DNA of 64,000 nt from Desulfolutivibrio sulfodismutans DSM 3696. Its GTDB lineage: Bacteria > Desulfobacterota > Desulfovibrionia > Desulfovibrionales > Desulfovibrionaceae. Under the pieces are notes generated by a model, which saw nothing but the letters and a program-made list of their open reading frames with translations, did no database searches and was not told the origin of the DNA. Positions 2,919 to 48,842 of the stretch are shown piece by piece. How positions within the stretch are numbered: position 1 is the first letter of the stretch; each line of letters starts with the position of its first letter. The stretch is taken from contig NZ_CP045504.1 of assembly GCF_013376455.1 (NCBI RefSeq), forward strand, positions 4,113,001 through 4,177,000. The letters run 5' to 3'. A program made the translations under genes and the position numbers.

Positions 2919-5333
2919 CTAGTTGAGCAGCAGCAGCAGCATGTTTGCCCCCGGATTGGCCGAAGGCTGCGGATCAAGAATGAATGCAGCCAGTCCCGAG
3001 CTCGCCGCCCCGTCGTAGGTGGTGAAATCCCCTCCGATCACCCCTCGTGTCAGTCCCACCCGGCGGATGACCCGGGCCCTGGCCGTGACCCCCCCGTCCG
3101 GGTCGAATCCGGCGTCCAAGGCGCCGGTGGCGGTTGCCCTGGCCAGTCGAGCCCGGTTGACATCGTTGTACTTCGTGAATCCTCCGGCGAAAAGTATCTG
3201 TCCATTGGGTTCAAGCGAGAGGGAATCGACATACGTCAGGGACGTGGCCCCGGTCGTGGACTCGAAGGGGTCCAAGGCCCCGGTGGTGGCGAACCGGGCA
3301 AGTCCCCGGCGTTGCGGCCTGCTCCAACTGCCATCGATGATCTCCCCGAAATCACCGCAGATGACAGACTTGCCATCGGATTGCACCCCGATTTCACGTA
3401 CCGTGCCGTTGGGGATGACCACGCCTGCCGACGGCGTAGTGGGGAGAAAGGTGGTGTCGATGGCCCCGGCGCCGGTGACGCGGGTGAAAAATCCCCGGGA
3501 CAGGCCTTCATAGGTGACGTAGCCGCCCACGTAGTATTTCCCGGAGCTTTCGGCCAGGGCATAGGTGGAGAGGCTTGTGCCGCTGGTGATCGTGATCTGG
3601 GGCGTGAAAGCGGCGTCGAGGCCGCCGTCGGTGTTGAGGCGGGCCAGGGGACTGCGCTCCTGCCCGGCGATCTTGCGCACATGGCCGCCTATCAGCACCT
3701 GATTCCCCGCCAGGGGCAAGACGGCGTAGACCGGGGCGGGCGAGTTGTCGTTTCGGGTCACGATGGGTGTAAAGGCCGTATCCACTGCCCCGGCGGCGGT
3801 GAACCGGGCCAGGCCGCCCAGGGGCCGTGTGGCCGCACCGACCAGGTCGCCTGCGGCAAAGACCAGGCCGTCCGAGCGCAGGGCCACATCGTGGACCACG
3901 CCGTCCGGACCAAGCCCGGCCGAGAACGTGGTGTCCACAGCGCCATCCCGGGTCAACCGGGCCAGCTTGGGCGACCAGACCCCGCCAAACCAGTTGAAGT
4001 TGCCGCCAATGAGGATTTTCCCGTCGGGCTGTGTCGCCAGATCGTTTACGGTCACGGTCCCCGAGGCGTTTCCGGAGGGATTGAAATTGGCGAACGTGCC
4101 AAGCAGCGTGCCGCCTGAGGAAATGACAGCCAGCCCCCCGCGGGTTTGTCCGTTGAAGGTTGTGAATCCCCCGGTGAGGGCGATGCCCACGCTGGCCAGG
4201 TTCCTGATGGCAAGGATGGGGGCGTTGGCCCCCGAGCCGACGGCAAAGGAGGTGTCCACGGCCCCGTTGGAGAGAAGATGCACAATGCGGTTGCAGGCCG
4301 TCCCGCCAAACGAGGTGAAGGCCCCGACCAGGATCAAGGAGTCGTCGTCAAGGCGCAAAGCCCCGGTTACGTCGCCGTTTGGCCCGGCGCCGATGTTGAA
4401 CGTGGCGTCAATCGTTCCGTTGCTGTTGCGGCGCAGAACCCGGTTGGACGACAGGCCAAAGGCCTTGGTGAAGTTGCCCACCACATAGGACTTGCTGTTT
4501 GCGGCCGAAAGGACGGCCAGTATGGGGCCGTCGTTGGACGCGCCGTCGGCTTCGTTGGTGATGACCGCCCCGGCGTTGGTCAGCGTCGTGCGCCAGTTGA
4601 TCTGGGTGGTGGTCCCGGAATTGAAGGCCCCGGCGACCGTGAGCCGGTTGGGATAGGATGGCTCGGCGGAGTCGACGGCCAGTCCGGTGACATAGGCCCG
4701 GGGGCCGTTGAACACCGGATAGTCTCCATCGGCGAATCCGTTGGCCTGGACACGGATCAAGTGCCGGGTGGGGTCCGTGGCTACCTGGGCCAGTTGCAGC
4801 CCCACGCCGCCGCACAGCACCTGGTCGTCGGACTGCACGGCCAGGGCGTTGATGATTCCCTGTCCGGCAAAGGCCGACCAGAAGGAGTTGTCCAGCGCCC
4901 CGGATGCGGACAAAAGGGCCAGATCGCGGTAGGTCGAGCCTCCTGCGAGAACCGAAAAGTCGCCGCCGACGAGGAATTTGTCGTCGCTGCGCCGGACAAC
5001 GGCCCGTATTTCTCCGGAAAAGGCGGGAGGGGCGAAAGAGGTATCCACATTGCCTGTGGCATTGACGCGTACAATACCTGTGTAACCCGATCCATTGACG
5101 GTCAAGAAGGAACCATAAACGATGAAAGACGTGGAGGACTCCTGGTAAATGCCGTATATTACAGATTTATTCTGAGCCCCAAACCCGATGGCAAAGTCTG
5201 GATCAAGGCTGCCAGGTATTGCTGCAGCCATGCTCTGTACAGGAGAGTTGGAAAATATTAATAGTGATATGGAAAGTAGGAAAACAATTTTTACGCAAAA
5301 TTGTTTTGAAAAGAGGCTGCAAACGTTTTGCAT
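2919..5333 (-). CDS. Secreted delta-60-repeat beta-propeller protein with NMLLLLLN C-terminus
   Basis: An 804-residue exported protein. The N-terminus has a basic start, a hydrophobic core (IVFLLSISLLIF) and a likely cleavage site near residue 38. The rest is a chain of about 50-60-residue units of the form 'G-x-D-x-x-F ... V-x-A-x-x-x-Q-x-D-G-K-I-L-I-G-G-x-F', which is the delta-60 repeat family expected to fold as propellers. No catalytic motif is seen. The final residues are PGANMLLLLLN, closely matching the end of the NHL-repeat protein at 16457-18298. The start has GGAGG seven bases upstream. It is convergent with the hybrid kinase. Function is unknown; a surface or periplasmic binding role is inferred. 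Confidence 0.85.
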   Translation of the reverse strand: MQNVCSLFSKQFCVKIVFLLSISLLIFSNSPVQSMAAAIPGSLDPDFAIGFGAQNKSVIYGIYQESSTSFIVYGSFLTVNGSGYTGIVRVNATGNVDTSFAPPAFSGEIRAVVRRSDDKFLVGGDFSVLAGGSTYRDLALLSASGALDNSFWSAFAGQGIINALAVQSDDQVLCGGVGLQLAQVATDPTRHLIRVQANGFADGDYPVFNGPRAYVTGLAVDSAEPSYPNRLTVAGAFNSGTTTQINWRTTLTNAGAVITNEADGASNDGPILAVLSAANSKSYVVGNFTKAFGLSSNRVLRRNSNGTIDATFNIGAGPNGDVTGALRLDDDSLILVGAFTSFGGTACNRIVHLLSNGAVDTSFAVGSGANAPILAIRNLASVGIALTGGFTTFNGQTRGGLAVISSGGTLLGTFANFNPSGNASGTVTVNDLATQPDGKILIGGNFNWFGGVWSPKLARLTRDGAVDTTFSAGLGPDGVVHDVALRSDGLVFAAGDLVGAATRPLGGLARFTAAGAVDTAFTPIVTRNDNSPAPVYAVLPLAGNQVLIGGHVRKIAGQERSPLARLNTDGGLDAAFTPQITITSGTSLSTYALAESSGKYYVGGYVTYEGLSRGFFTRVTGAGAIDTTFLPTTPSAGVVIPNGTVREIGVQSDGKSVICGDFGEIIDGSWSRPQRRGLARFATTGALDPFESTTGATSLTYVDSLSLEPNGQILFAGGFTKYNDVNRARLARATATGALDAGFDPDGGVTARARVIRRVGLTRGVIGGDFTTYDGAASSGLAAFILDPQPSANPGANMLLLLLN

Positions 5334-15063: not shown

Positions 15064-16008
15064 ATGGGCCATACGGAGGCGGACGGCATGTCCGACGCAG
15101 CAGCGGGCATCACCCTGGTCAATCTGGAATTCAATTCCTCGTGCAACCTGCGCTGCCGCCACTGCTCCCTGGATCATCGCAAGAAACGGCGCATCATGGA
15201 ACCGGCCACGCTTTCCCGGGTCATGGGGCTTCTGGCTGCCGGGCAGTTGCCGAATCTTCGCCGCCTGGACCTGCATAACGGGGGCGAGACGCTGTTGCAT
15301 CCCGACCTGCCGGGCATGCTGGCGATCATCGCCGCGTTCCGGCAGCGGCTTGGGGCCGGGGCCGTGGTGGGGCTTTTGACCAACGCCATGTTGCTAACCC
15401 CTGAGATATCGCGGCACATCCTCGCCAGCCGGGCCGTGGATCAGTTGCGGGTGAGCCTGGACGGCGGCAGCCCGGAACGCTTCGAGCATATGCGGCGGGG
15501 GGCGAAATGGGACACGGTGGCCAAAAACGTGGCCGCGTTCATGCGCCTGAACGCAAAACACGGCCACCCGGTGCGCACCGAGGCCATCTGCGTCATGCCT
15601 CCGCAGCTTCTCCCGGATGGACCGTTCGCGCCGCAGTTCGTGGCCCTGGCCCAGACCTTCGACAAGGTCAGCCTGCGCCCGCCCCACAACTGGGACGGCA
15701 GCCGGGAACTCGGCATCGACGACGCCAGCTACCGGGCCACGGCCGCCAGTCGGTCGGGCGAGGCCTGTTTTCTCTTGTCGCGCAATCTGGTGGTGCTGCC
15801 GGACGGGTCGGTGACGGTGTGCTGCAACGATTTGAACGCCCGGGGGGTCTTTGGCTCCATACTGACGGAGGATTTCCGAGCCCTGGCGGGGCATCCGGCG
15901 CGGCAGGACTGGCTTGGGCTCTTCCGGGAGGGCCGCCAGGGCGAGATCGAACTGTGCCGGAACTGTTCGGGTTTTTTTGCTCCTCCGGGACGCGGGGAAG
16001 AGGCGTAA
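15064..16008 (+). CDS. Radical SAM protein with SPASM-like C-terminus
   Basis: A 314-residue radical SAM enzyme. The [4Fe-4S]/SAM motif CNLRCRHC has cysteines at 27, 31 and 34, followed by HNGGETLLHPDL in place of the usual GGEP loop. The C-terminal part has CFLLSRNLVVLPDGSVTVCC and a closing ELCRNCSG, the layout of SPASM auxiliary-cluster proteins that modify peptides or proteins. GAGGAGG lies six bases before the ATG. No precursor peptide gene is evident next to it, so the substrate is unknown. It is divergent from the coo operon. Confidence 0.85.
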   Translation: MGHTEADGMSDAAAGITLVNLEFNSSCNLRCRHCSLDHRKKRRIMEPATLSRVMGLLAAGQLPNLRRLDLHNGGETLLHPDLPGMLAIIAAFRQRLGAGAVVGLLTNAMLLTPEISRHILASRAVDQLRVSLDGGSPERFEHMRRGAKWDTVAKNVAAFMRLNAKHGHPVRTEAICVMPPQLLPDGPFAPQFVALAQTFDKVSLRPPHNWDGSRELGIDDASYRATAASRSGEACFLLSRNLVVLPDGSVTVCCNDLNARGVFGSILTEDFRALAGHPARQDWLGLFREGRQGEIELCRNCSGFFAPPGRGEEA

Positions 16009-16456
16009 GGGCCGGGCGGCAGACCGTTGGGTATGGCGCTGGCGCAGGGCTTGTGTCTGGCGTCTGCTGGCCGCAACATCGCCATGGGTGGCTGGCGAAT
16101 TTCGCATATTTTTCGGGATATATAAAATTGCATCGGAACATCGCCGCATGCTCAAGTAAAAATGATTTTATCGGCAATTTTAGGATGGTTGTGGATGCGG
16201 AAGATCCGCAACGCCGAAATGAAAACCAGGCGATGGAGTATTCCGAAATAAGGCTTGCACATCCTTTTCATTTCTGATCTATCAGGTGGACGATTGAGTC
16301 TTTCTGTTCGCGAGATGTTCTTCTTTTTCAAAGACTATTATTTTCAAGAAAATTTTTCGTTCCCGTGATCTGCAGGACGTCTGTGAAGGCTGTGCCTGAC
16401 ATCCCGGCGGCATGCCCTTGGCCGAGAACCCTCATCCAAACCAGAGAGGAATGGAT
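16009..16456. other. Intergenic region before the NHL protein
   Basis: No gene seen. From about 16090 to 16380 the DNA is markedly AT-rich, including a T/A-rich stretch at 16310-16360, and likely carries the NHL gene promoter. A small hairpin (GCGGA-AGA-TCCGC) lies near 16200. Confidence 0.4.
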
Positions 16457-18298
16457 ATGGACGCTTCCCGACGACTCCAGACGGTATGCGCAGTCCTGGC
16501 CCTGTGCCTGTGCTGCGGCGTCGCCGCAGCACAGGCCGCCGCAGGCCGCACCGTGGGCTTTTTCCCCCCGGGGGACATCGCCTATCAGGCCTTTTATCAG
16601 CCCAAGGCGGTGTGGGTGGACTCCGTGGGCAACCTTTTCGTGGCCGACACGGGCAACAACCGGATCATGAAGTTCGACGCGAACGGGGCGTTTCTGACGT
16701 CCTTCGGCTCGGCCGGGACCGGCGACGGCCAATTCGACACCCCCTCGGGCCTTGCCCTGGATGCCGCAGACAACGTGTACGTGGCCGATACTGGCAATGA
16801 CCGCCTCCAGAAGTTCACGTCCGCGGGGACGTTCGTGGCCGTGATCGGCTCGCCGGGGACGGGCAACGGGCAGCTTGACGCGCCCATGGGGCTGGCCCGG
16901 GACGGCCAGGGCCACATTGTGGTGGCGGACTCGGGCAACAACCGCTTTCAGCGGTTTTATTCCAGCGACGGCAGCTACGCGGGGAAATGGGGCTCGGCGG
17001 GCACGGGCGACAAGCAGTTCAACGCCCCCCGGGGCCTGGGCGTGCAGTTCCCCGGCGGGACGTATTACTACCATGTCGATACGGGCAACAACCGTATGCA
17101 AAAGATCACCTCGGGCGGGACGTTCATGACCAAATGGGGCACGACCGGCACGGGCGACGGCCAGTTCAACCAGCCCACGGAAACCCGGGTGGACGGCAGC
17201 GGCAACGTCTTCGTCTCGGACTCGGGCAATCACCGCATCCAGAGGTTCAACACGATCGGGACCTTCCTGGGCAAATGGGGAACCCAGGGGCTCGGCGCGG
17301 GACAGTTGTCCTCTCCCACGGGCATGGCCCTGGACGCCTCGGGATATCTGTACGTGGCCGACACGGGCAATAGCCGCATCCAGAAGTTCGACGCCTCCGG
17401 AACCGTGCAGGCCGTCTACGGAACCTGCGGCAACGACGACCTGCGCTTCAGCCAGCCGGGCCAGGCGGCCTTTCAGGCCTCGGGGCACATGCTGGTGGCG
17501 GACACCAAAAACGACCGGGTCAAGCGCTACGACGCGGCCGGGAATTTCGTCGAGGTCTGGGGGAGCGCGGGTTCGGGCGACGGCCAGCTCGACGGGCCCT
17601 CGGGGATGGCCGTGGCCCCTTCGGGGAAGGTCCATATCGTGGACACCAACAACCACCGGGTGCAGATCTTCGACGCCGCCGGGAACTACCTGTCCCAGTA
17701 TGGCGGTTCGGGCAGCGCCGCAGGGAAGTTCTGGCTGCCCACGGGCATCGCCCTGGTCGGGGAAAACACCGTCTATGTCGCGGACAGCGGGAACAACCGC
17801 ATGCAGAAGCTCGTCTTCGGATCGGGTTCTCCCACGGCCACGGCCTGGGGAAGCAACGGGAGCGGTCAGGGGAATTTCAACATGCCGCGCGATGTGGCCG
17901 TGGACGCCTCGGGAAACGTGTACGTGGCCGACCGGGGCAACGACCGCATCCAGAAGTTCACCGCCGACGGCGTGTTCCTGGCTGCCTTCGGCACGGAGGG
18001 GGCCGGGGAGGGCCAGTTGTCATCCCCGGCGGGCGTCGCGGTGGACAGGGAAGGCAGGCTGGTGGTCGCGGACCAGGGCAACCACCGCATCCAGCGGTTC
18101 ACCACGGCGGGTGGGTTCGTGGATGCCTACGGGTCGCTCGGCAGCGGCGACGGGCAGTTCAACGTGCCGACCTACGTGGGCGTGGACGCCGCCGGGGTTC
18201 TGTACGTGAGCGAGGCCCGCAACAACCGGGTGCAGTTGGTGTCGTTTGCGTCGGGGGCTGGCCCAGCCACGAATATGTTGTTGCTTTTGAACGAGTAG
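16457..18298 (+). CDS. Secreted NHL-repeat beta-propeller protein with NMLLLLNE C-terminus
   Basis: A 613-residue exported protein. It has a signal peptide with core CAVLALCLCCGVAAAQA, then about a dozen NHL units of 45-50 residues, each with the recurring pattern V-A-D-T-G-N-N-R-I-Q-K-F and GSAGTGDGQF. Two six-bladed propellers would use this number, an inference from repeat count. No enzyme domain is fused. It ends GPATNMLLLLNE, almost the same as the delta-60 protein at 2919-5333. Start 16457 lies six bases after AGAGAGGA; the ATG at 16451 touches that site and is less likely. Confidence 0.88.
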   Translation: MDASRRLQTVCAVLALCLCCGVAAAQAAAGRTVGFFPPGDIAYQAFYQPKAVWVDSVGNLFVADTGNNRIMKFDANGAFLTSFGSAGTGDGQFDTPSGLALDAADNVYVADTGNDRLQKFTSAGTFVAVIGSPGTGNGQLDAPMGLARDGQGHIVVADSGNNRFQRFYSSDGSYAGKWGSAGTGDKQFNAPRGLGVQFPGGTYYYHVDTGNNRMQKITSGGTFMTKWGTTGTGDGQFNQPTETRVDGSGNVFVSDSGNHRIQRFNTIGTFLGKWGTQGLGAGQLSSPTGMALDASGYLYVADTGNSRIQKFDASGTVQAVYGTCGNDDLRFSQPGQAAFQASGHMLVADTKNDRVKRYDAAGNFVEVWGSAGSGDGQLDGPSGMAVAPSGKVHIVDTNNHRVQIFDAAGNYLSQYGGSGSAAGKFWLPTGIALVGENTVYVADSGNNRMQKLVFGSGSPTATAWGSNGSGQGNFNMPRDVAVDASGNVYVADRGNDRIQKFTADGVFLAAFGTEGAGEGQLSSPAGVAVDREGRLVVADQGNHRIQRFTTAGGFVDAYGSLGSGDGQFNVPTYVGVDAAGVLYVSEARNNRVQLVSFASGAGPATNMLLLLNE

Positions 18299-23022: not shown

Positions 23023-24264
23023 GTGCCGGTCTACGACTACACGGCCATCGATGCCCAGGGCAAGGCGCGCCGGGGCATCGTCAGCGCCGACAGCCGCCAG
23101 GAGGCCCAGCGGAAACTGCGCGCCGGGGGGCTGTATCCCACCGGTCTGCGCGAGGGCGCATCCGCCGGTTCGGAGTCCGAAGCGACTCGCGACGGCGAGC
23201 GTCCCGCTTCCCTGGCCCTTTTTCGCCGCCGGGTGTCCGGGGAGGACATGTCCGTGGCCATGCGCCAGCTCTCGGGTCTGCTTGGGGCGGGGTTTCCGCT
23301 GCTTCGGGCCCTGGAGCTCATGCGCGGCCAGACGACCTCCAAGGCCCTTTTCCGGGTGCTCTCCCAGGTCTGCGAACGCATCAAGGAAGGGTCGAGCCTG
23401 TCGGCGGCCATGCTGGAGGAGCCCGGGGCCTTCACCCCGGCCCAGGCCGGGATGGTCCGGGCGGCCGAGGCCTCGGGGGCCCTGGACACGGTCATGTCCG
23501 GCATGGCCGATCTCATGGAGCAGCAGCAGGCCCTGCGGCGCAAGATCATGGCCTCCCTGGCCTACCCGGGGCTGATGCTGGTCGTCGGGGTGGGCGTGGT
23601 GGGGTTTCTCATGGCCTACGTCATCCCCAACGTGGCCCGCATCTTCACCGACTTGAAACACGATCTGCCCCAGGCCACGGTGATCCTCATGGCCGTAAGC
23701 TCCTTCATCGAATCCTACTGGCCCCTGCTTCTGATCGGGGCGGCCCTTTGCTGGTTCGGCCTGTGGCGGTCCTGGCGTTCCCCCCGGGGACGCCCGGTGT
23801 GCGAGACCGCCCTGTTCCGTTTCCCCGTGTTGGGGAGCATCATGTCGGGCTACGCCATGGTCCGCTTCGCCCGGACGCTTGGGTCCGTGCTGGAAAACGG
23901 CCTGCCCATCATCCGGGCCCTGGACGTGGTGGCCAAGGCCACGGGCAGCGTTTTGGTGGAGCGCGATCTGGTCGACGTGCGCCGGGAGGTGGGCGAGGGC
24001 ATGAGCCTGGCCGCCGCCCTTGGCGGCAAACCGCGATTTCCCGGGCTCCTGGTCCAGATGGCCGCCGCCGGGGAGCAAAGCGGGGCCCTTGACCGCATGC
24101 TCAAAAAGGCGGCGGACATCATGGAGGACGGGGTCAAAAGCCGTCTGGCCATGGCTTCGGCCCTGTTCGAGCCGCTCTTGATTCTGGCCTTGGGGATGGT
24201 GGTCGGCTTCATCGTGGTGGCCGTTCTGCTCCCCATATTTGAAATAAGCAGCCTCATCGGATAA
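23023..24264 (+). CDS. gspF: Type II secretion inner-membrane platform protein GspF
   Basis: A 413-residue polytopic protein of the GspF/PilC family. Its two repeated cytoplasmic domains are each followed by membrane helices ([55 protein letters not shown]). Family motifs [20 protein letters not shown] and [20 protein letters not shown] mark the two repeats. It anchors the secretion ATPase and the pseudopilus assembly site. The start is GTG. It is the first of nine consecutive gsp genes; gspC, D and E are not in the window. Confidence 0.95.
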
Positions 24265-24292: not shown

Positions 24293-24751
24293 ATGCGCCA
24301 CATCCTCCCCCATAGCCGCCTTGCCGCCCTCGGGCAGGCAGGCATGACGCTTATCGAGATCATGGTGGTCATCGTGATTTTGGGCATCCTGGCCGGTCTG
24401 GTGATTCCCCGGATCATGGACCAGCCGGACAAGGCCAAGGTGGTCAAGGCCAAGATGCAGATCGAGAGTCTGTCCACGGCGCTCAAGCAATACAAGATCG
24501 ACAACGGCGTCTACCCGACCACGGAACAGGGCCTGGAGGCTCTGGTGCAAAAGCCCACCATCGGCAAGATCCCCAAGAATTTCCCCGCAGGCGGCTACAT
24601 CCAAAAGACCCCTTCCGATCCCTGGGACAACGCCTACATCTACACCAGCCCCGGCGACCACGGCGATTTCGACATCGTCTCGCGCGGCGCCGATGGCGAG
24701 GAAGGCGGTGAAAAGGCCGATGCCGACATCAAGAGCTGGGAGCTTGAATAA
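24293..24751 (+). CDS. gspG: Major pseudopilin GspG
   Basis: A 152-residue major pseudopilin. The prepilin site is [21 protein letters not shown], with the usual glutamate at +5 of the mature protein and a long N-terminal helix. The GspG-specific block [19 protein letters not shown] and the C-terminal [20 protein letters not shown] are present; the latter holds the calcium-site acidic residues. It is expected to be cleaved and N-methylated by the prepilin peptidase encoded at 36486-37277. Confidence 0.97.
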
Positions 24752-25313
24752 CCCCCCGGCCCCGGGCTTCACCCTGGCCGAAACCCTGGTGGTGCTTTTG
24801 ATCATGAGCGCCATGGCCGCCATGGTCCTGCCGGGGATCGCGCCCCTTCTGGGCGGCGAGGACTTTCGAACCGCCGCCGGGCGGTTGTCCGAGGCCTTTG
24901 CCCGGGCCAGACTCGATGCGGTCATCGACGGCACGCGCCGCCGGGTGGTGCTCGATCTGGACGAAGGACGCTTCTGGGTGGATCATGTGCCCCGGACAGC
25001 GTCCGGGGTCGATGTCCCGGATACCACTGCGGACGCCCAGGATGCCTCCCGGCGCGACCCCTCCCTGCCCGATCCCGTGAAGCGCGCCCTGCCTGACGAT
25101 CTCCGCCTGATCGAGGTGTCGGTATTCGGCGGCGATCCGGTGACCACCGGCCGGGTGTCCGTGCGGGTGCTGCCCCTGGGGCTTTCCGAACCGTGTTCCC
25201 TGGTCCTGGCGGATAAAAGCGAGACCGAACGGCGGCTGGACGTCCCGGCCACGGGGGCGCCCTCCTGGCGGGACGCCACGGGCGATGCGACGGTTGAGCG
25301 GGCCGCGCCATGA
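24720..25313 (+). CDS. gspH: Minor pseudopilin GspH
   Basis: About 197 residues with a prepilin leader ending [21 protein letters not shown]. This is followed by a GspH-type globular part ([35 protein letters not shown]). The start overlaps the end of gspG; ATG 24720 with AAAAGG just upstream is preferred, but ATG 24693 or TTG 24744 would also keep the leader. Its end overlaps gspI by four bases. Confidence 0.88.
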
Positions 25314-25735
25314 CGTCGGCCCGCGTCCTGGCCCATGTGCGTCCTGGCCTGCCGGACAGCCCGGCCCGAACCGGTTTCACCCTGCTGGAGACCATGGTGG
25401 CCGTGGTGGTCCTGGCCACGGCCATGGTGGCGGTGCTCTCCGTGTGCCTCAACATCCAAAACGCCCGCCTGCGGGCCGTGCGCGCCCAGGCCGCCGCCCT
25501 GACCCTTCGCGACCGGCTGGCCGACATGACGGCCTTCGGGGTCAACCGCCTGGAATCGCGTCAGGGCGTCCAGGAGACGGCGGGCGGCGACTGGCGCTGG
25601 AGCGTGGACGTGGCCGACTCGGCGCTTCCGGGCCTGAGTCTGGTCACGGTCACGGTGGCCCCGGACACCTCGGGCGAGGCCGACGAAAAGCCCGAGCCCC
25701 GGTTGCGCGTGACCAGCCTGTCGGGGCGGCGATGA
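25310..25735 (+). CDS. gspI: Minor pseudopilin GspI
   Basis: A 141-residue minor pseudopilin. The leader ends ARTG|FTLLETMVAVVVLATAM, followed by the typical GspI segment NARLRAVRAQAAALTLRDRL. It starts in the ATGA overlap with gspH and ends in the same kind of overlap with gspJ, so the run is translated in a coupled way. GspI is known to nucleate the pseudopilus tip with GspJ and GspK. Confidence 0.92.
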   Translation: MTSARVLAHVRPGLPDSPARTGFTLLETMVAVVVLATAMVAVLSVCLNIQNARLRAVRAQAAALTLRDRLADMTAFGVNRLESRQGVQETAGGDWRWSVDVADSALPGLSLVTVTVAPDTSGEADEKPEPRLRVTSLSGRR

Positions 25736-26481
25736 GGCGGGAGGCGCAGACGGCCCCGGCCGGATTCACGCTTTTCGAGGTGCTCACCGCCCTGGCCATC
25801 CTGGCCGGGGCCTTCGTGGGCATTTTCGCCGTGTTCCGGGTGGCCTCGGACGTGGCCGTCAACACCAGGGAACAGGGCGCGGCCCGGGAGACGGCCCGGG
25901 TGGTCCGGGTGCTTCTGGCCAGGGATCTGGATTCGGTCTTCCACCCGGCCGTGGCCGACCGCGCCGGGCGCTCGGGATTCCGATTTCTCGTGCCCAGCCC
26001 CTCGGGCGGCGATTCCCGGACCAGCGACGGGGATCAGGTGGTCGTGGACATGATCACCCTGGCCCGGCTCGACTTCGACCGCGACGAGCCAACGGCGGGG
26101 CTGACCCGGGTGCGCTATCTGCTGCGGCCCTCGGATGACGGCGAAACGCGGTTTACGCTGGTCCGGGCCGAACTGGCGGACCCGCATCTTCTTCCTTCGA
26201 CCCTGTCTGATCCGCCCTGGCGCGAGGTGACTTTGGCCCGGAACGTGGCGGCATTTTCCCTGGCCCCCCTGGATGAACGTCGGGCCGAACGCGACAGCTG
26301 GGACAGCCGGACGCGCGAAAGCCAGGGCAACGAGGCCCTGCCCCGTATGCTTGTGGCCACCTACCGGCCGGTGCGCGAGGCCACGGACACCTCGCCCACG
26401 GATGGCGACGGCCCGGCCGGTTCCTTCACGACCCGGCTGGCCCTGCCCATTGGCGGCGTCTCCCCCCAGGGGGTGCAATGA
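25732..26481 (+). CDS. gspJ: Minor pseudopilin GspJ
   Basis: A 249-residue minor pseudopilin. The leader ends APAG|FTLFEVLTALAILAGAF, followed by a GspJ-type core (VVRVLLARDLDSVFHP, TRVRYLLRPSDDGETRFTLV). ATG 25732 overlaps the gspI stop codon; an in-frame extension further upstream is inside gspI and was rejected. It is longer than the usual ~200 residues by a loop in the second half. Confidence 0.9.
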   Translation: MRREAQTAPAGFTLFEVLTALAILAGAFVGIFAVFRVASDVAVNTREQGAARETARVVRVLLARDLDSVFHPAVADRAGRSGFRFLVPSPSGGDSRTSDGDQVVVDMITLARLDFDRDEPTAGLTRVRYLLRPSDDGETRFTLVRAELADPHLLPSTLSDPPWREVTLARNVAAFSLAPLDERRAERDSWDSRTRESQGNEALPRMLVATYRPVREATDTSPTDGDGPAGSFTTRLALPIGGVSPQGVQ

Positions 26482-27560
26482 ACCGGCCCGCTAGGCGCCC
26501 CGGGCAGGCCGGGGCGGCGCTTCTTCTGGTGCTCATCCTGGTGGCCGCCCTGTCCCTGGCCCTGGCCGGGGCCCTGCCCCTGGCCCGGCTGGAGATGGCC
26601 GGGGAGAGCACCGAGGCGGCGGCGGTCACGGCCCGGGCCCGGGTCGATTCCGGGCTGCTTCTGGCCGCGTCGCTTTTGTCCCGCGACGCGACGATCAACC
26701 AATTCGATCATCCGGGCGAGGCCTGGTCCGCCTTTTTCGCAAGCGACGCCGAAAGGGCCAGGATCATGGCCGAGGGGCAGGTCACGGACAGCGCGGTGGC
26801 CGGGCTTTTTGCCGATGGCGCGCTTTCGGGCACGGTGACGGACGAATCCGGGAAGATTCCGGTCAACGCCCTGATCATCGGCGGCTCGTCTCCCTATGTC
26901 CGGATTCTGCGCGATCTGTTGCTCGGCCCGACCTTCAAACTGACCGAGGTCGAGGCCAACCGGGTGGTGCTGGCCATCCTGGACTGGGTGGACGTCGACA
27001 GCCAGCCCGCAGACTCCGCAACCCTGGGCAGCGACTTCCGCTCAGGGTACAGCGGCGCCGAGGCCCCGTACTATACCGCCCTGGGCCGGGACCACCTGCC
27101 GCCCAACGCCACCATGCTGTCTTTGGGGGAACTGTTGCGGGTGCGCGGGGTGACCCCCGCGATCTACGACGGCACGGCCGGTCGTCCGGGGCTCAAGGAT
27201 CTGCTCACGGTCCACGGCAAGGGGACGACGGGCATCAACGTGAACACCGCTCCCGAGCCGGTGCTGGCGGCCCTGGCCTGGAAAAACGGCGAATCCGCGG
27301 CCCTGGCCTTCGCCCGGGACGTGGTCGAGTTCCGGGCGCAGCCCGGCAACTTCGCCGCCCTGCAGAATCCTGAATGGGTGCGCACCACCCTTTCGGCCCA
27401 TGCCAACCTGGTGTTGGCCGGAGTTTCGCTCACGTCCCGAGGGACGTATTATTGCGCCGATCTCACAGGCGTGTCGGGTTCCTCCAAGGCCCGGCTCCTG
27501 GCCTGGCTCAGGCGGGACGATGACGGCAAAATCGTGGTGGTCGCCCGCCGGGCGTGGTAG
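26478..27560 (+). CDS. gspK: Minor pseudopilin GspK, pseudopilus tip
   Basis: A 360-residue large minor pseudopilin. Its leader is short and the hydrophobic segment begins GQAGAALLLVLILVAALSLA, lacking the glutamate at +5, as is normal for GspK. The family hallmarks INVNTAPEPVLAAL and VVLAILDWVDVDSQP (helix-hairpin-like domain) are present. GspK sits at the pseudopilus tip with GspI and GspJ. It overlaps gspJ by four bases. Confidence 0.93.
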   Translation: MNRPARRPGQAGAALLLVLILVAALSLALAGALPLARLEMAGESTEAAAVTARARVDSGLLLAASLLSRDATINQFDHPGEAWSAFFASDAERARIMAEGQVTDSAVAGLFADGALSGTVTDESGKIPVNALIIGGSSPYVRILRDLLLGPTFKLTEVEANRVVLAILDWVDVDSQPADSATLGSDFRSGYSGAEAPYYTALGRDHLPPNATMLSLGELLRVRGVTPAIYDGTAGRPGLKDLLTVHGKGTTGINVNTAPEPVLAALAWKNGESAALAFARDVVEFRAQPGNFAALQNPEWVRTTLSAHANLVLAGVSLTSRGTYYCADLTGVSGSSKARLLAWLRRDDDGKIVVVARRAW

Positions 27561-27628: not shown

Positions 27629-29242
27629 ATGCGCATAGCGGGAATCGACGTGTCGGGAAGCGAGATTCGGCTCGTGGTCCTGACGCGCACCCTTTTTCGA
27701 ACCCGGTTCGAGGGCATGGCCCGGGCCGTGGTTTCTCCCGAAGCCACCCCGGCCGCAAAGGGCCGCGCGGCGCGCGATCTGCTTTTGTCCCAAGGGTTTG
27801 GCGGCGCTGCGGCGATCCTTGGCATGGACTCGGAAGCGGCCATGGTGCGCCGGGTGGTTTTTCCCTTCAGTTCTCCGGGAAAAATTGCCAAGGTGCTGCG
27901 GCTGGAGCTTGAATCCGTCATGCCCGGCCCCCTCGCGGGGCAGGCATTGTCCTGCGTCAGGGCCGGAAGCGACGGCCCGCAGCCGTCCGGGATTTTCGGC
28001 CTGTCTGGCCGATCCGGACGGCACGCCTATCAGGCCGCCGCCATTCCCATGGGCGTGGTTGAGCGGCATCGGGAGGGATTTTCGGCCCTGGACCCGGAGG
28101 TGTTGGACCTGGATCTGACCGGTCTGTGTTGGGCGGCCCTGGCCACCCAACACGCCCTGGCCGCGCCGTCCCCGGCCGGACAGGGCCTTGCGGCGATCCT
28201 TGGCGGCCTCGTCGCCCGGCCGCCGGACGCGGCATCCCGGCACCCGGTTCTGGCCGTGGACGTGGAGCCCGGCCGGGCGCTTCTGGCCTTGTGCGCCACG
28301 GGGCAACCCCGGCGGGTGCGCCAGGCCTCCCTGGCCGGAATGGACCCGGGCGGCGAGGCGTGGTTTGCGGAGTTGTGTCGGCAGATCGTCTTGACCCTGG
28401 CGGCCGAGACGGGGTTTGGCCCGGCCGATATCCTGCTTTTCGGGACGCTGGCCGATGCCGGACTGGCCGAACGGCTGGCGGCGCGGCTGGAGGAGCGGCC
28501 TGGGTTTGGCCTGTGCCGCGAGGTGCGCTGCCCGGCGGACCTGGGAAGCCTTCTTTTTCCCGGCCAGGACAAGGCCCGGGAACTCACTGTGGACATGGCC
28601 GTGGCCTGCGGCCTGGCGCTTCGCGGCGTCGGGGCGGGGGGGCTCAATTTTCTGGACGACGACCCGTCCGGGAGCTCCCTGGTGCGCGAGGCCCTGGGGC
28701 TTTCGGGGCAACCCGGGCATCTTCGGCGGGCCGTGCTCCTCGGGGCCGGGCTGGGGATGGCGATACTGGCCTACGGGGCGGACGCCTCAGTCGACATCCA
28801 ACTCAAAAAGGCCTGGCTGGCCCGTCTGGAGGGGGAGTTGGCCACCCTCGTGGCCCAGGCCGCCCCGGGCACGCGCAAGGGCATGGAGCCCGGCCAGTAT
28901 GTCAGCGTGCTGCGGGACCGGCTCCGGGAGATGGAGGCGGCTTGGCCCGCCAGGCTGCGTTCCGGGGTGGGCGGCGGACTGACCCAGCTTTTGCGCACGG
29001 TCTCCCGGGCCATTCCCGAGGGATCGCCGGTGGTGGTGGGGGAATTCACCGTGGACGGGCGGCGGGTGCGCATGACGGCCACGGCCGACGCCTATGAGAC
29101 CGTGGAGTCGGTACGCGCCAAGCTTTTGGAATCGGGCGGTTTTTCCGCTGTCGAGATCAAGGGGGCGACCTCCAAGGCGGGGGGCGGCGGGGTGGAGTTT
29201 GAACTGGAGATGACCGCCAGCGGCGCAAAGGACGGCCTGTGA
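27629..29242 (+). CDS. gspL: Type II secretion protein GspL (actin-fold platform protein)
   Basis: A 537-residue protein with an N-terminal PilM/actin-like cytoplasmic domain (MRIAGIDVSGSEIRLVVL). It has one membrane helix near residue 375-390 (AVLLGAGLGMAILAYGA) and a periplasmic ferredoxin-like C-terminus. The order and overlap with gspM fit GspL, which couples the secretion ATPase GspE to the pseudopilus. Sequence similarity to classical GspL is modest, so the name rests partly on position. Confidence 0.85.
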   Translation: MRIAGIDVSGSEIRLVVLTRTLFRTRFEGMARAVVSPEATPAAKGRAARDLLLSQGFGGAAAILGMDSEAAMVRRVVFPFSSPGKIAKVLRLELESVMPGPLAGQALSCVRAGSDGPQPSGIFGLSGRSGRHAYQAAAIPMGVVERHREGFSALDPEVLDLDLTGLCWAALATQHALAAPSPAGQGLAAILGGLVARPPDAASRHPVLAVDVEPGRALLALCATGQPRRVRQASLAGMDPGGEAWFAELCRQIVLTLAAETGFGPADILLFGTLADAGLAERLAARLEERPGFGLCREVRCPADLGSLLFPGQDKARELTVDMAVACGLALRGVGAGGLNFLDDDPSGSSLVREALGLSGQPGHLRRAVLLGAGLGMAILAYGADASVDIQLKKAWLARLEGELATLVAQAAPGTRKGMEPGQYVSVLRDRLREMEAAWPARLRSGVGGGLTQLLRTVSRAIPEGSPVVVGEFTVDGRRVRMTATADAYETVESVRAKLLESGGFSAVEIKGATSKAGGGGVEFELEMTASGAKDGL

Positions 29243-29814
29243 GCGAATCCGTGCGCCGAATGGCCCTTTTTGCCGTGGCCGGCCTTCTGGCCCTTTTGGC
29301 CCTGGACAGTTGGGTGCTGTCCCCTGTGGCCGAGACCCGGCACAAACTCGCCACGCGCATCGAGCGGGCCGAAAAGGCCCTGGCCGAGGCCGGGGCCCTG
29401 GAAAAGCGCCGCCAGGAGGTGGCCGCCCGGTTAAGCGAGGTCGCCGGGGCCAGCGGGGACGTGAACCTGTTCGCCCTGCTCCAGACCATGGCCAGGGAGG
29501 CCGGGGTGTCCGGGCAAATCGAATACATGCGGCCGTCCAGCCGGGAGGCGGGGTCGGGGATGCGCGAGGAGATCGTGGACATGCGGCTGCGGCGCGTGGC
29601 CCTGGGGGACATGGCCGCTTTTCTGGGCCGCATCGAGGCGGCCCCGGAGGCCCTGTCCGTGCGCAAGCTGTCGTTTCGGGCCGATCCCGCCGAGGGCCTT
29701 AATGCCGATGTGTCCATTTCCGTGCCCGTGGGCCGGGAACAGGCCGCAACCGACAAGCCGTCGTCCCCTGGTCCGGGGCCGAACCGGGACACGCCCCGGG
29801 AGGCCGCCCCATGA
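29239..29814 (+). CDS. gspM: Type II secretion protein GspM
   Basis: A 191-residue bitopic protein: a membrane helix at about 8-25 (LFAVAGLLALLALDSWVL), a coiled-coil stretch (about 35-70), then a small alpha/beta domain. This is the GspM/PilO layout, which pairs with GspL. It begins at GTG 29239 overlapping the gspL stop, and ends in a four-base overlap with gspN. A proline-rich tail of 30 residues is probably disordered. Confidence 0.82.
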   Translation: MSESVRRMALFAVAGLLALLALDSWVLSPVAETRHKLATRIERAEKALAEAGALEKRRQEVAARLSEVAGASGDVNLFALLQTMAREAGVSGQIEYMRPSSREAGSGMREEIVDMRLRRVALGDMAAFLGRIEAAPEALSVRKLSFRADPAEGLNADVSISVPVGREQAATDKPSSPGPGPNRDTPREAAP

Positions 29815-30863
29815 GCGTGTCCGCCTTGGTGGCGCGGGTGCGGCGTCTGGCCGGGAGAAGCGCCCCGGAAGGCGACTCCGTGGACCGCGCCGCGTCCATC
29901 CCGACCCCTGCGCCGACCCCTGCGCCGCCCTCCGGCCAGCCTGGCGCGCCGCGTCCGTCCCTGGCCGTCCGGGTGGCGTTCGCCGCCATCCTGGCGGTTT
30001 TCACCCTGTCCCTGTCCCTTTTTATGCTGGCCGCCAGGTTTCCGGACGAGCGGCTGCGCCTGTGGGCGGAACGCACCCTGTCGCCGGGACACGGCCTGAA
30101 CCTCTCCGTGCGCGAGGCCCGGGCCACGCTGTTTCCTCCGGGGGCCGTTTTGAGCGGGCTGCGGCTTCGCCTGGAGGGCGCAGCGGACCCCCTGGCGGAC
30201 ATGCCCGAGGCGCGCCTGGGGCTGTCCCTTTGGGCGGTCTGCCTGGGCCGCCTGGAGGTGTCGGCCGAGGGCCGGACGCTGGGCGGCGAGCTGACCGTCG
30301 AAGCGGCCTCGGACGACATCTTCGGGGGCGGCTGGCGCGAGGTGGTCATAACGGCCAGCGGCCTTGATTTTGGCCGGTCGCCGGGGTTGCCCTGGCTCGT
30401 GAACCGTCATGCAGGCGGGCGGCTTTCGGGGGAGTTGCGCCTTGTGCCGGGAAAAACCGTGTCCGGGAAGGCCGGGGTCTTGCTGGAGGACGCCTTCCTT
30501 GAGGTCGAGGGGGAGATGCTGCGGGCCGTGCGCGTCGAACTGGGGCGGATGGCCATACGGGCCGAATACAAAGACGGCGGGCTGGATGTTTCGGAATGCT
30601 CCGTGGCCTCGGACATGCTGCGGGGCGGCCTGACGGGGCGGATCGATTCGCCCGGGCCGGGCGGGGACATTCGGGCCAGCCGACTGGCGCTTGCGGGAAC
30701 CCTGACCGACGAGGTCCAGGCCGAGGTCACTTCCCCCCGGCCTGCCGGGCTGCGGCTAACGGGGACCGTTTCCGCGCCGGTTCTGACCTGGGAGGCCGGG
30801 GCGGATTCGGGCAAGGCAGGGCAGAGCCCTCCCACGCCGCCTGCCCCGCCCGGCAAGCCGTAA
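29811..30863 (+). CDS. gspN: Type II secretion protein GspN
   Basis: A 350-residue protein with a proline-rich cytoplasmic start, one membrane helix at about 53-73 (VAFAAILAVFTLSLSLFML), and a large periplasmic beta-rich region. The position after gspM and the AsmA-like repetitive beta pattern (LFPPGAVLSGLRLRL, GLTGRIDSPGPGGDI) match the GspN family found in delta-proteobacterial systems. Its exact role in secretion is not settled. It ends the operon, 3 bp before the stop of the convergent TPR lipoprotein gene. Confidence 0.8.
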   Translation: MSVSALVARVRRLAGRSAPEGDSVDRAASIPTPAPTPAPPSGQPGAPRPSLAVRVAFAAILAVFTLSLSLFMLAARFPDERLRLWAERTLSPGHGLNLSVREARATLFPPGAVLSGLRLRLEGAADPLADMPEARLGLSLWAVCLGRLEVSAEGRTLGGELTVEAASDDIFGGGWREVVITASGLDFGRSPGLPWLVNRHAGGRLSGELRLVPGKTVSGKAGVLLEDAFLEVEGEMLRAVRVELGRMAIRAEYKDGGLDVSECSVASDMLRGGLTGRIDSPGPGGDIRASRLALAGTLTDEVQAEVTSPRPAGLRLTGTVSAPVLTWEAGADSGKAGQSPPTPPAPPGKP

Positions 30864-44551: not shown

Positions 44552-46066
44552 ATGAAGCGTTTGACCCTTGCTTTGGCGGCCATTTTGCTCCTGGGTTGCT
44601 TCGCCAGCGCCCAGGCGGCCACCGAAGTGAAGATGACTGGTGATTTTCGCGTCTATGGAAACTGGTGGAGCGGCCGTAACTTCACCGGCTGGTCCAATCA
44701 GTTCAACGGCGGCTCCGCTGCCGGAACCCAGACCGAAGACGACTTCGGCGTCAACCAGCGCTTTCGCCTGCGCACCGACTTCGTGGCCAACGAGGCCCTG
44801 AAGTTCCGCTTGGGCATCCGCGTGAACAACCAGTGGTGGGGCCGCGGCACCCTGACCGCCGACGCGCCCGCCGTGTCCATCGATGTCTACCAGGCCTACC
44901 TGCAGTTCAAGTGGCCGGACACCGACATCGAGATCACCGCTGGCCGTCAGCCCCTGGCCCTGCCCCAGAGCGGCTATTTCGACGGCGGGCTGGTCTTCGA
45001 TTCCGAAGCCGCCGCCCTGGTGATCACCGCTCCCCTGGTGCCCGACACCCTGGGCCTCTTGATCGGCTACAGCCGTTTCTATGACGACGGCCAGTGGGAC
45101 ACCACCACCACCCAGGTGGCTGATGAGCTGGACCTGTTCTTCATGGCCCTGCCCATCACCCTGGACGGTTTCAGCATCACCCCCTGGACCGCTCTGGGCA
45201 TCGGCGGCCGCGACGCCGACTACGACAGCCTGGTGGCCGCGAACCTGGTCACCCCGGGCTTCAGCGATGTGGGTTGGAAGAACAATCAGAATGCCTATTG
45301 GTGGTTGGGCGGCGCGATCGAGATCGACGCCCTTGATCCCATCAAGTTCTACGCCGACGTGATCTACGGCCAGGGCGCCATGAGCGATCGCAAGGTCAAT
45401 CAGCGCGCTGGCTGGTTCATTGACGCCGCCATCGAATACACCGGCTGGGATGTCCTGACCCCGTCCGTGTTCGGCTGGTGGAGCACCGGTGAAGACGGCT
45501 CCTGGAGCAACGGCAGCGAGCGTATGCCCTACACCGTGCCCTCCTGGAACGCCGGCGCCTCCTTCCTGTTCGACGGCGGACAGGAACTCGGCGCTGACAG
45601 CAACATGTACATGAACCCGATCGGCACCTGGGGTATCGGCCTGTCCCTGAAGGACATCTCCTTCATCGAAAAGCTGACCCACCGCATCACCTTCGCGTAC
45701 GTGCAGGGCACCAACTCGTCCAAGGCCATCCGGGCGACGAACTACACCAACTACCTGATCAGCGCCACCGGCATGGCCGTGCCCATGACCGGCACGACCT
45801 ACAGCCCGGCCTACTATGGTGTGGATTACTACGCCCCGAGCTACACCTCCAACGGCCTGTTCGCCATGGGCCGCGACCTGACCGCCAGCGAGTACGTGAT
45901 CGGAGTGAACTTCGACCACAAGTACATGATCTATGAAAACCTGGCGGCCATCGTCGAGACCGGCTACGCCCACGGCGACTTCCAAAAGAGCGTGTGGGGT
46001 TCGCGCCTGGTCAACAAGTCCCAGGACGCCTGGCGCGTGGCCTTCGGCCTGCAGTACAAGTTCTAA
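44552..46066 (+). CDS. Outer-membrane homotrimeric porin, copy 1
   Basis: A 504-residue outer-membrane beta-barrel of the Desulfovibrio porin type. The signal peptide MKRLTLALAAILLLGCFASA ends near residue 22-24 (AQA). Alternating hydrophobic strands follow, and the protein ends LQYKF with the C-terminal phenylalanine needed for barrel assembly. A GGAGGAAGGA ribosome site is shared by all three copies. It differs from copies 2 and 3 mainly in two regions, about residues 222-250 and 385-430, probably surface loops. Expected role: diffusion of small solutes. The TMT motif (KMTGDFRVYGNWW) starts the mature barrel. Confidence 0.92.
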   Translation: MKRLTLALAAILLLGCFASAQAATEVKMTGDFRVYGNWWSGRNFTGWSNQFNGGSAAGTQTEDDFGVNQRFRLRTDFVANEALKFRLGIRVNNQWWGRGTLTADAPAVSIDVYQAYLQFKWPDTDIEITAGRQPLALPQSGYFDGGLVFDSEAAALVITAPLVPDTLGLLIGYSRFYDDGQWDTTTTQVADELDLFFMALPITLDGFSITPWTALGIGGRDADYDSLVAANLVTPGFSDVGWKNNQNAYWWLGGAIEIDALDPIKFYADVIYGQGAMSDRKVNQRAGWFIDAAIEYTGWDVLTPSVFGWWSTGEDGSWSNGSERMPYTVPSWNAGASFLFDGGQELGADSNMYMNPIGTWGIGLSLKDISFIEKLTHRITFAYVQGTNSSKAIRATNYTNYLISATGMAVPMTGTTYSPAYYGVDYYAPSYTSNGLFAMGRDLTASEYVIGVNFDHKYMIYENLAAIVETGYAHGDFQKSVWGSRLVNKSQDAWRVAFGLQYKF

Positions 46067-46097
46067 TGAAAGTGTAGCCGGATCATGCCGATGCCGT

Positions 46098-46129
46098 GGC
46101 CGGAACCTTCGGGTTCCGGCCTTTTTTTT
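46098..46129 (+). terminator. Rho-independent terminator of porin 1
   Basis: GGCCGGAACC-TTCG-GGTTCCGGCC, a perfect 10-bp stem with a UUCG loop, followed by eight Ts. It lies 31 bp after the stop codon. An intron remnant begins directly after it. Confidence 0.95.
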
Positions 46130-46130
46130 G

Positions 46131-46215
46131 GTGCGCCCGGCAGGGCGCACCCACTTGGAGGTGAAAGTCCTCTCCAGACCTGGCAGGGGGAGCTGGTAGC
46201 CGGACGACGCAAGAT
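46131..46215 (+). mobile_element. Group II intron 5'-end remnant
   Basis: The sequence starts GTGCGCCCGGCAGGGCGCAC, matching the 5' end of bacterial group II introns (Ll.LtrB begins GTGCGCCCAGATAGGGTG). It continues with GGAGGTGAAAGTCCTCTCC and GGGAGCTGGTAGCC, which are typical domain I pieces. Similarity fades near 46215. There is no reverse-transcriptase gene and no domain V/3' end in the following 500 bp, so it is a dead fragment. It sits one base after a terminator T-run, the preferred target type of some bacterial group II introns. Confidence 0.7.
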
Positions 46216-46538
46216 GCAAAACGCGGCGGGAATCGCAACGCTCCGGAACCGTACGCCCGGTGCTGCGCGAGGGCGGAGCCCTTTCGGTCCCTGACTGCCC
46301 GGTGTTTTTACGCCACAGTGGCTCCATCGCCATCGTACTGGCCGGCTGAGGGCAATTCGCCATGGCGGGGGGAGGGGAGGCGGCTGGGCGGAATGCGCAT
46401 GGGTTTTCGTCTCTTGGCCTGGCTCTGCGAGATGCTCTTTTTGCACTGCGCAGCGGCCGGAGGGAGGGGCGACGGCTTGTTTAGAATCTTAATATAATGA
46501 AATTACAGAGAAATATAGAATTGCACAGAAGGTAGAAT
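46216..46538. other. Gap between porin 1 remnant region and porin 2 promoter
   Basis: No gene. The first 200 bp are GC-rich and could be further degenerate intron sequence. The rest (from about 46480) is AT-rich promoter DNA. Confidence 0.35.
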
Positions 46539-46582
46539 TTTTTGTACCTGTGTCAAATTTACAGCCATTTCCCCTTGCATGT
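46539..46582 (+). promoter_or_regulatory. Porin 2 upstream conserved box
   Basis: The second copy of the porin element: GTACCTGTGTCAAA (46544-46557), then ATTTCCCCTTGC with the same spacing as in the other two. It ends 127 bases before the start codon, and the leader between also shows scattered identity. Confidence 0.55.
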
Positions 46583-46702
46583 GTTTTCCGATTGGGCTAA
46601 AGCTTGCACATGCTTTCACAGAGGGCGGTCAGTTTTCATTGGCTGATCCTGGGAAAGCTTGCATCGGCAACCGGCACATATCCAAACCATGGAGGAAGGA
46701 AC

Positions 46703-48217: not shown

Positions 48218-48247
48218 TGGAGTCATGACCGGATAATGCCGATGCGG

Positions 48248-48281
48248 CGGCCGGGATCTTCGGATCCCGGCCGTTTTTTTT
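48248..48281 (+). terminator. Rho-independent terminator of porin 2
   Basis: CGGCCGGGATC-TTCG-GATCCCGGCCG, an 11-bp perfect stem with a UUCG loop and eight Ts, 30 bp after the stop codon. Confidence 0.95.
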
Positions 48282-48282
48282 G

Positions 48283-48318
48283 GTGCGCCCGGCAGGGCGC
48301 TGCCACGCGGAGGTGAAC
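48283..48318 (+). mobile_element. Short group II intron 5'-end remnant
   Basis: It begins GTGCGCCCGGCAGGGCGC, the same 18 bases as the remnant after porin 1, then GCGGAGGTGAA before diverging. Its position relative to the terminator T-run is the same. It is either an independent insertion or was copied together with the porin-terminator unit. Confidence 0.6.
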
Positions 48319-48674
48319 ATTTCAAAACGGTGCGGGCGAGCACGGGAACGCCACAGGGTGAACCCCGGCACTTCGTAATACTTCAGAGACTTCGACCAGG
48401 GGAATGGACGTGTTGTGTATTCTATCTGACGTAGTTTCAGATAAAATAACGGATATGTTGTGCAAGTTGCGGTTTCATCTGTCCGCTGGCGACGGACGAG
48501 GAATCCGGGGGGATTTATTTACGTACGAAAGCGAAATAGTGTGCATATTGTGATTGATATGGGGTGCTGTACGGTGTGTGCTGTGAATTGTTGTTGCAGA
48601 CGATAATCAAAATCAACTCATGCTATCTCTCTCTAATTTTTGAGAATAAATTTTTCTGTGTCATTAGTGTAAAA
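48319..48674. other. AT-rich gap before porin 3
   Basis: About 350 bp without a gene. The AT content is much higher than in the window generally, especially 48400-48670. It may carry additional regulator sites for porin 3; none could be defined. Confidence 0.4.
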
Positions 48675-48719
48675 AAAATTGTACTTGTGTCAAAAAAATT
48701 GCCTTTTTCCCTTGCAAAA
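48675..48719 (+). promoter_or_regulatory. Porin 3 upstream conserved box
   Basis: The third copy: GTACTTGTGTCAAA (48681-48694) followed at the same distance by TTTTTCCCTTGC (48705-48716). It ends about 130 bases before the start codon. The leader also repeats GGCATCGGCAACCGGCAC seen before porin 2. Confidence 0.55.
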
Positions 48720-48842
48720 GACACAATGCTTGGCTAGAAGTTGCACAAGCGTTCGTAGAGGGTGGTCTGTTTTTTTTGGGGCAGATCTTACGGATGCCAG
48801 GCATCGGCAACCGGCACGAATCCGCAACATGGAGGAAGGAAC

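Follow-up and report, generated by a model that had tools for sequence, protein, structure and literature searches.

A short leucine-rich C-terminus on exported proteins of unrelated families, a proposed portable sorting tag probably linked to type II secretion

In three genomes, 52 proteins (orthologs counted apart; G000 has 19, G002 14 and G051 19) share a short C-terminal sequence, roughly x-LLLL-x-[E/D/N/Q]-stop preceded by a P/A/G/S-rich stretch. This end is concentrated on apparently exported proteins, independent of the protein family. That it is a real, short and family-independent C-terminal sorting tag, absent from the annotation libraries searched, is well supported. On balance we lean towards reading it as a portable sorting signal with the type II secretion system (T2SS) as its most likely reader. 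G000, from a bacterium resembling sulfate reducers, is the genome containing the window, i.e. the whole stretch of 64,000 nucleotides analysed here. G001 and G002 belong to the same genus and G051 to the same order, G038 is of the same genus as G051, and G373 comes from another family of the phylum.

Two proteins of the window carry the leucine end. The first is a predicted exported NHL-repeat beta-propeller protein of 628 aa (16412..18298, + strand), identified by its translation, a Pfam NHL match (PF01436, E=2.4e-80), a signal-peptide-like N-terminus according to a simple hydrophobicity rule, and a beta-propeller model. Its tag reads GPATNMLLLLNE plus stop (18260..18298, +). The second, a delta-60 (DUF5122) protein of 804 aa also predicted to be exported (2919..5333, - strand; Pfam/NCBIfam, PF17164, E=4.5e-60), ends in NPGANMLLLLLN plus stop (2919..2957, -), and the end of its G002 ortholog is NPAPAALLLLQE. 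Both ends were re-read in frame up to the stop codon, and the shared NMLLLL terminus of the original prediction is real. As had been claimed, the two carriers come from different repeat families and the match is at protein level, since the leucine codons differ (TTG TTG CTT TTG in the NHL gene vs CTG CTG CTG CTG CTC in the delta-60 gene). The NHL protein also lies above the cutoff of the NCBIfam model for ScyF, a scytonemin PEP-CTERM protein. This match is achieved through the repeats and is best at residues 344-465, away from the tail, which contains no PEP-CTERM, so that the name ScyF would be misleading. A radical SAM/SPASM protein is encoded just upstream of the NHL gene (15064-16008), but it is probably unrelated to the tag because a like gene occupies the same place in G002, where the NHL gene is absent. 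Furthermore, three tandem genes of the window (44552-50357), by eye probable outer-membrane porins, have like ends ..QYKF.

NMLLLL itself proved too narrow as a motif. In the whole genome of 4.44 Mb it occurs at three places, namely the NHL end, the delta-60 end and the inside of an ORF resembling GlnD by eye. Among 59 relatives the pattern was present in 41, and none of the 29 relative loci read, a minority of the relatives' matches (32 loci with the three of G000), ends an exported protein in this way. A protein search of G000 revealed other NHL genes ending in GGMILLLLQE (two genes), GGMILLLFQE, PAPALLLLME, FSPGSLLLLLLE, PAPTGALLLLMGVE and SLAPVYLLLLAD, i.e. with termini such as LLLLQE, LLLLME, LLLLLLE and LLLLAD. 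One further NHL gene, with the end NPSILQMLLF, is an exception.

The DNA pattern for LLLLx[DEKN]-stop was found at 22 sites of G000 compared to 33 for a reversed-pattern control; the corresponding values are 19 vs 25 for G002 and 29 vs 20 for G051. As the count in G000 is not above the control, the signal lies in the nature of the sites and not in their number. Opened singly, 17 of the 22 sites were in-frame ends of apparently exported proteins, compared to about 0.2 such ends per 4000 proteins expected from composition. One of them is a 173-aa ORF at 249263 with a low coding score. The remaining five are internal, tiny or non-coding and represent no credible gene ends. None of the 22 ends a recognisable cytoplasmic protein, and the tag has thus withstood the objection, foreseen in the original prediction, that such ends might be equally frequent in cytoplasmic proteins. 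Two further proteins with slightly different ends (L057:5793 and L115:7830) bring the total to 19. Genes were called by a small codon-score script, and their start codons are uncertain.

The G000 carriers scanned belong to eight Pfam families: NHL, DUF5122, Lcl_C (two proteins), DUF3466, peptidase C10, sulfatase, right-handed beta-helix (two) and subtilase (two). Beside the tagged C10 peptidase we observed an untagged 759-aa gene (L118:2357-4636) whose N-terminal stretch resembles that of its neighbour. In the stretches fetched from G000 and G002 (129 and 100 called genes, respectively), 30 proteins pass a strict tail test, a rate inflated by the choice of these stretches around tags. A signal-peptide-like start is present in 27 of them, two are sulfatases with a Tat motif, and one is an NHL gene cut by the contig end. 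The Tat motif TRRQFLKG of the sulfatases was missed by the signal rule and seen on reading; in G000 one carrier possesses it and the others show signal-peptide-like starts. The rule is loose and accepts membrane proteins too, with 84 further untagged genes of the same stretches also passing it. A Sec or Tat export signal, as T2SS substrates have, is thus present according to the simple rule and the Tat motif. Since cargo of both pathways carries the tag, we infer a use at a step after export, and such a role is what the sequences suggest.

Tail anatomy was analysed in 55 tails collected from five genomes by a relaxed test (G011 gave none). They include two false ones, namely an antisense ORF of G051 and a G002 protein that by eye is RsmI-like, and do not include one identical tail, two ORFs missed by the gene caller (G000:249263 and G051:C53:16056) and the fragment L113:2-214. 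The hydrophobic run comprises 3-7 residues, and no K or R follows the hydrophobic core in any of the 55. The last residue is E in 34, D in 12, Q in five, N in three and I in one, and 47 tails contain proline in the upstream stretch. In a single-sequence model of the NHL protein of the window (mean pLDDT 68), the predicted propeller matches NHL structures and residues 610-628 have pLDDT values <50. In this one protein modelled, the tail is thus placed outside the predicted fold.

Five ortholog pairs of G000 and G002 were compared. The delta-60 proteins are 70% identical and end in SANPGANMLLLLLN and TVNPAPAALLLLQE, respectively, with the four leucines kept and the linker altered. The DUF3466 pair shows two synonymous changes in leucine codons and none altering the tag. 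The other three pairs say little because their DNA is nearly identical at the tail. Small as this sample is, it fits selection on the motif.

The distribution of the tag is patchy. In G002, tagged genes terminate at 13 of the 19 pattern sites. Of these genes, 11 have a signal-like start by the rule (the Tat sulfatase counted), one is cut by the contig end and one starts outside the stretch; one more tagged gene has a longer end (L158:2424). In G051, 8 of 29 pattern sites end tagged genes, and the total of 19 for this genome includes ends with methionine in the core or with other spacing. Between C27:230 and C27:31518 of G051, 12 of the 15 called genes carry the tag. One of the tagged genes of this contig is closely followed by a 21-aa open frame (C27:7163, L112) that ends in PGVLMLLLLDE and may be what is left of the tail of a decayed gene. 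Another contig of this genome (C35; L336, L337) contains putatively coding ORFs of 52, 59 and 206 aa, mutually alike and ending in VPVG[ILM]LLLL(L)..K, which were excluded from the tag count. None of the four pattern sites of G001 (a single-contig genome of the same genus, 99% complete) and none of the ten of G038 ends a tagged gene. Thus, of the sorting or anchoring tag originally proposed, a sorting tag on exported proteins has stood up well, in a form other than NMLLLL and in only some of the relatives.

More distant genomes show variant ends: FLPAMHLLLQ, VVPAMNLLLQ and FLPSLHLLLLQ in G017, LFLPLTILLSAP (core LTILLSAP) in G011, LLPVLLMLL in G033, and GAPILNLLLE and GAPILSLLLE in G373. These tails are looser and may represent another signal. 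An NHL protein of G199 (L325) ends in YLPLLRR and a small protein in FLPLVLR, possibly another short C-terminal tag; ends of this kind occur in Chloroflexota. NHL homologs were detected at 1e-40 in 19 of 395 genomes of the phylum. Of the 28 NHL loci read, 17 showed their C-terminus, and two of these ends were tag-like, both from G373; of 15 stretches fetched, seven were read, L312-L319 being left out. The delta-60 proteins of G034 are lipoprotein-like and carry no tag, and giant delta-60 ORFs were seen in G007 and G025 with their C-termini out of view. A scan of the genome contigs for a PG-form of the tag gave 16 matches, none of which ends a protein >50 aa with the tag, where we estimate about 15 to be expected; as G051 itself is absent from the matches, this says little on breadth. 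With a CTN-biased pattern, 297 genomes of the phylum were surveyed, yielding 11 sites in G000 (reversed control 6), 8 in G002 (4) and none in G001 (6). Some other genomes reached up to 16 raw sites (G193, G237), and further carriers may exist among them.

Gene context and co-occurrence suggest the type II secretion system, and not a protease or transpeptidase, as the partner of the tag. In the window, a gspF-like gene for a T2SS inner-membrane protein (23023..24264; TIGR02120, E=1.3e-118, below cutoff) starts 4.7 kb downstream of the end of the tagged NHL gene. It is followed, likewise on the + strand, by gspG encoding the major pseudopilin (24293..24751; TIGR01710, E=7.6e-54, above cutoff), a gspH-like minor pseudopilin gene (24693..25313; TIGR01708, E=2.9e-7, below cutoff), a gspJ/I-like minor pseudopilin gene of uncertain start codon (25285..26481; TIGR01711, E=1.1e-4, below cutoff) and the minor pseudopilin gene gspK (26478..27560; NF037980, E=1.7e-32, below cutoff, and PF21687, above cutoff). 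Further members are a gspL-like gene located between gspK and gspM (27629..29242; PilN domain, weak GspL match with E=0.023), a gspM-like gene (29239..29814; NF040576, E=5.3e-7, below cutoff) and a gspN-like gene (29811..30863; TIGR04411, E=3.6e-11, below cutoff). Of the proteins encoded in the window between 10095 and 37277, 16 were scanned, and none matched gspC, D or E. The NHL gene and the gsp genes do not form a single operon.

The context is closer in G051. Here, a tagged GDSL esterase gene heads an operon, 45 bp before the next gene. The operon continues with two genes for pseudopilins, gspK, an unnamed gene in the place of gspL, gspM, another unnamed gene, gspD and gspE, whereas gspF, G and H are missing from it. 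This gsp locus is flanked by two more tagged genes, and a further one is located in an operon with GspH-, Tt1218-, PilW- and PilX-type genes. By eye, with family checks on a minority of the neighbours, no other recurring partner gene was recognised beside tagged genes.

A GspK (PF21687) match was found in 19 of 59 genomes, 18 of them over the cutoff. By this match, T2SS genes, which a T2SS substrate needs in its own genome, are present in the tag-bearing G000, G002 and G051 and in G017, G011 and G033 with their variant ends. For G001, neither a GspK match nor an NHL homolog (at 1e-10) nor a delta-60 protein was found. Among 12 genomes picked for an NHL search, homologs were found in G011, G017 and G033, all with GspK, and not in G018, G025, G047, G038, G043 and G055 (all with GspK) or in G001, G012 and G027 (all without). 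As G011, G017 and G033 had been picked partly for having GspK, only G002 and G051 count as unbiased positives. An LLLLxE pattern was also run on the 59 relatives, and a minority of the sites listed were opened; for G047, which has a strong GspK match, none of the three sites among the matches listed represents a tag, as two do not end in a stop and the third is antisense. Genomes with GspK and without tag or NHL homolog indicate, in a small and partly chosen sample, that T2SS may be needed but is by itself insufficient.

With moderate confidence, resting on gene neighbourhoods and genome comparison, we consider that the tag is probably read by, or works with, type II secretion. Sec or Tat would carry the proteins into the periplasm, where they would fold. 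A flexible P/A/G/S-rich stretch would then present the oligo-leucine peptide with its polar, usually acidic, last residue, the exposed tail might be read by the T2SS apparatus, e.g. the pseudopilus tip or periplasmic parts, and the folded protein would be taken across the outer membrane. More tentatively, it is possible that the pseudopilus or secretin complex reads the oligo-leucine peptide directly, in which case it could be used on any folded exported protein. For TcpF, passages of PMC9565799 describe a flexible N-terminal peptide that hooks onto the minor pilin TcpB during secretion. According to passages of PMC7949064, T2SS substrate recruitment is elusive, and the accepted view argued there is that the signals are structural and composite, which counts against the tag as a T2SS signal. 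The choice of T2SS cargo is an open question, and a linear tag, if true, would allow direct testing. Even if T2SS is not the reader, a sorting tag invisible to the libraries searched would label exported proteins that are otherwise anonymous. No published tag of this kind was recognised in a search of the open-access literature.

Alternatively it might be that the tag serves surface anchoring or processing outside T2SS, an unknown enzyme or receptor binding the oligo-leucine end and retaining or modifying its carrier at the outer membrane or matrix, as rhombosortase and exosortase do with tags of other kinds. We regard this main rival as possible, though doubtful. Anchoring or processing is the function of other tags found at the C-terminus of secreted enzymes and repeat proteins, as passages of PMC1569441 and PMC13393428 describe, and surface holding has an analogy in GlyGly-CTERM, which according to passages of PMC13393428 confers association with the membrane and requires a signal of another kind for secretion. 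A plasmid search gave no near relative, although plasmid C2 has short stretches in common with plasmids of Desulfolutivibrio and Solidesulfovibrio; on a Bacteroidota plasmid, the annotation assigns a T9SS sorting domain to a distant delta-60 relative, which would also fit anchoring. On the other hand, with a hydrophobic run of at most seven residues and, in all 55 tails, no K or R behind the core, the tripartite layout of known intramembrane systems is missing. The processing system suggested in the original prediction thus loses ground, since a tail without transmembrane stretch and basic end is unlike a substrate of sortase, exosortase or rhombosortase type. Neither was any other recurring partner gene recognised by eye near the tagged genes, a minority of whose neighbours were checked for family.

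Prc/Tsp- and DegP-type proteases of the periplasm read C-termini, and the tail might be a stability determinant tuning recognition by such tail-specific proteases, as its unordered state in the NHL model would permit. We consider this unlikely, because a neighbour of one tagged gene, by eye a solute-binding protein (L162:2-814), has no tag, and because G001 of the same genus does without the tag while such proteases are, to our knowledge, near-universal. Shared ancestry, by which the tail would have been copied along with duplicated C-terminal domains or genes, may apply to three neighbouring NHL genes of G000 with a long common C-terminal stretch ending in GGMILLL[LF]QE; as a general explanation it is very unlikely, since the other carriers come from different families, their leucine codons differ and, judged by eye, the tails are not obviously alike beyond the core. 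A mere coincidence of hydrophobic C-termini is scarcely credible, for although the relaxed test also caught the RsmI-like protein and the antisense ORF (2 of 55) and the raw G000 count does not exceed the reversed control, 17 exported-protein ends face about 0.2 expected, and none of the G001 (0/4) and G038 (0/10) sites ends an exported protein.

A sorting tag remains our preferred reading, and it resembles several known C-terminal systems in part. Scans of 14 tagged proteins against NCBIfam (E limits 1, 0.1 and 0.01) gave no match to a CTERM tail model, and an LPxTG-like motif, as in LPXTG/sortase systems, occurs in none of the 55 tails. GlyGly-CTERM consists of a Gly-rich motif, a transmembrane helix and a basic end. 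The leucine tag has no hydrophobic stretch of helix length, no basic end and mostly an acidic last residue; GG is found in 15 of the 55 tails, where neither a helix nor a basic end accompanies it. Similar to the tag, GlyGly-CTERM in the rhombosortase system of Vibrio is a short motif that follows an unstructured linker at the C-terminus of enzymes leaving through T2SS (passages of PMC13393428). PEP-CTERM regions, the exosortase counterpart, are likewise found on many unrelated exported proteins and sporadically among genomes. They comprise a PEP motif, a transmembrane helix and a basic cluster (passages of PMC1569441), whereas PEP occurs in one of our 55 tails, and helix and basic cluster are absent. 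The TcpF-TcpB pair of the type IVb pilus shares the short flexible terminal peptide, and tagged G051 genes adjoin pseudopilin or pilin genes; TcpF, however, uses its N-terminus while the leucine tag is C-terminal, and binding to a pilin is hypothetical here. The T9SS, too, employs modular C-terminal sorting, which by annotation extends to the Bacteroidota delta-60 relative. T9SS domains are folded and comprise about 70-100 aa, compared to about 8-12 residues for the leucine tag.
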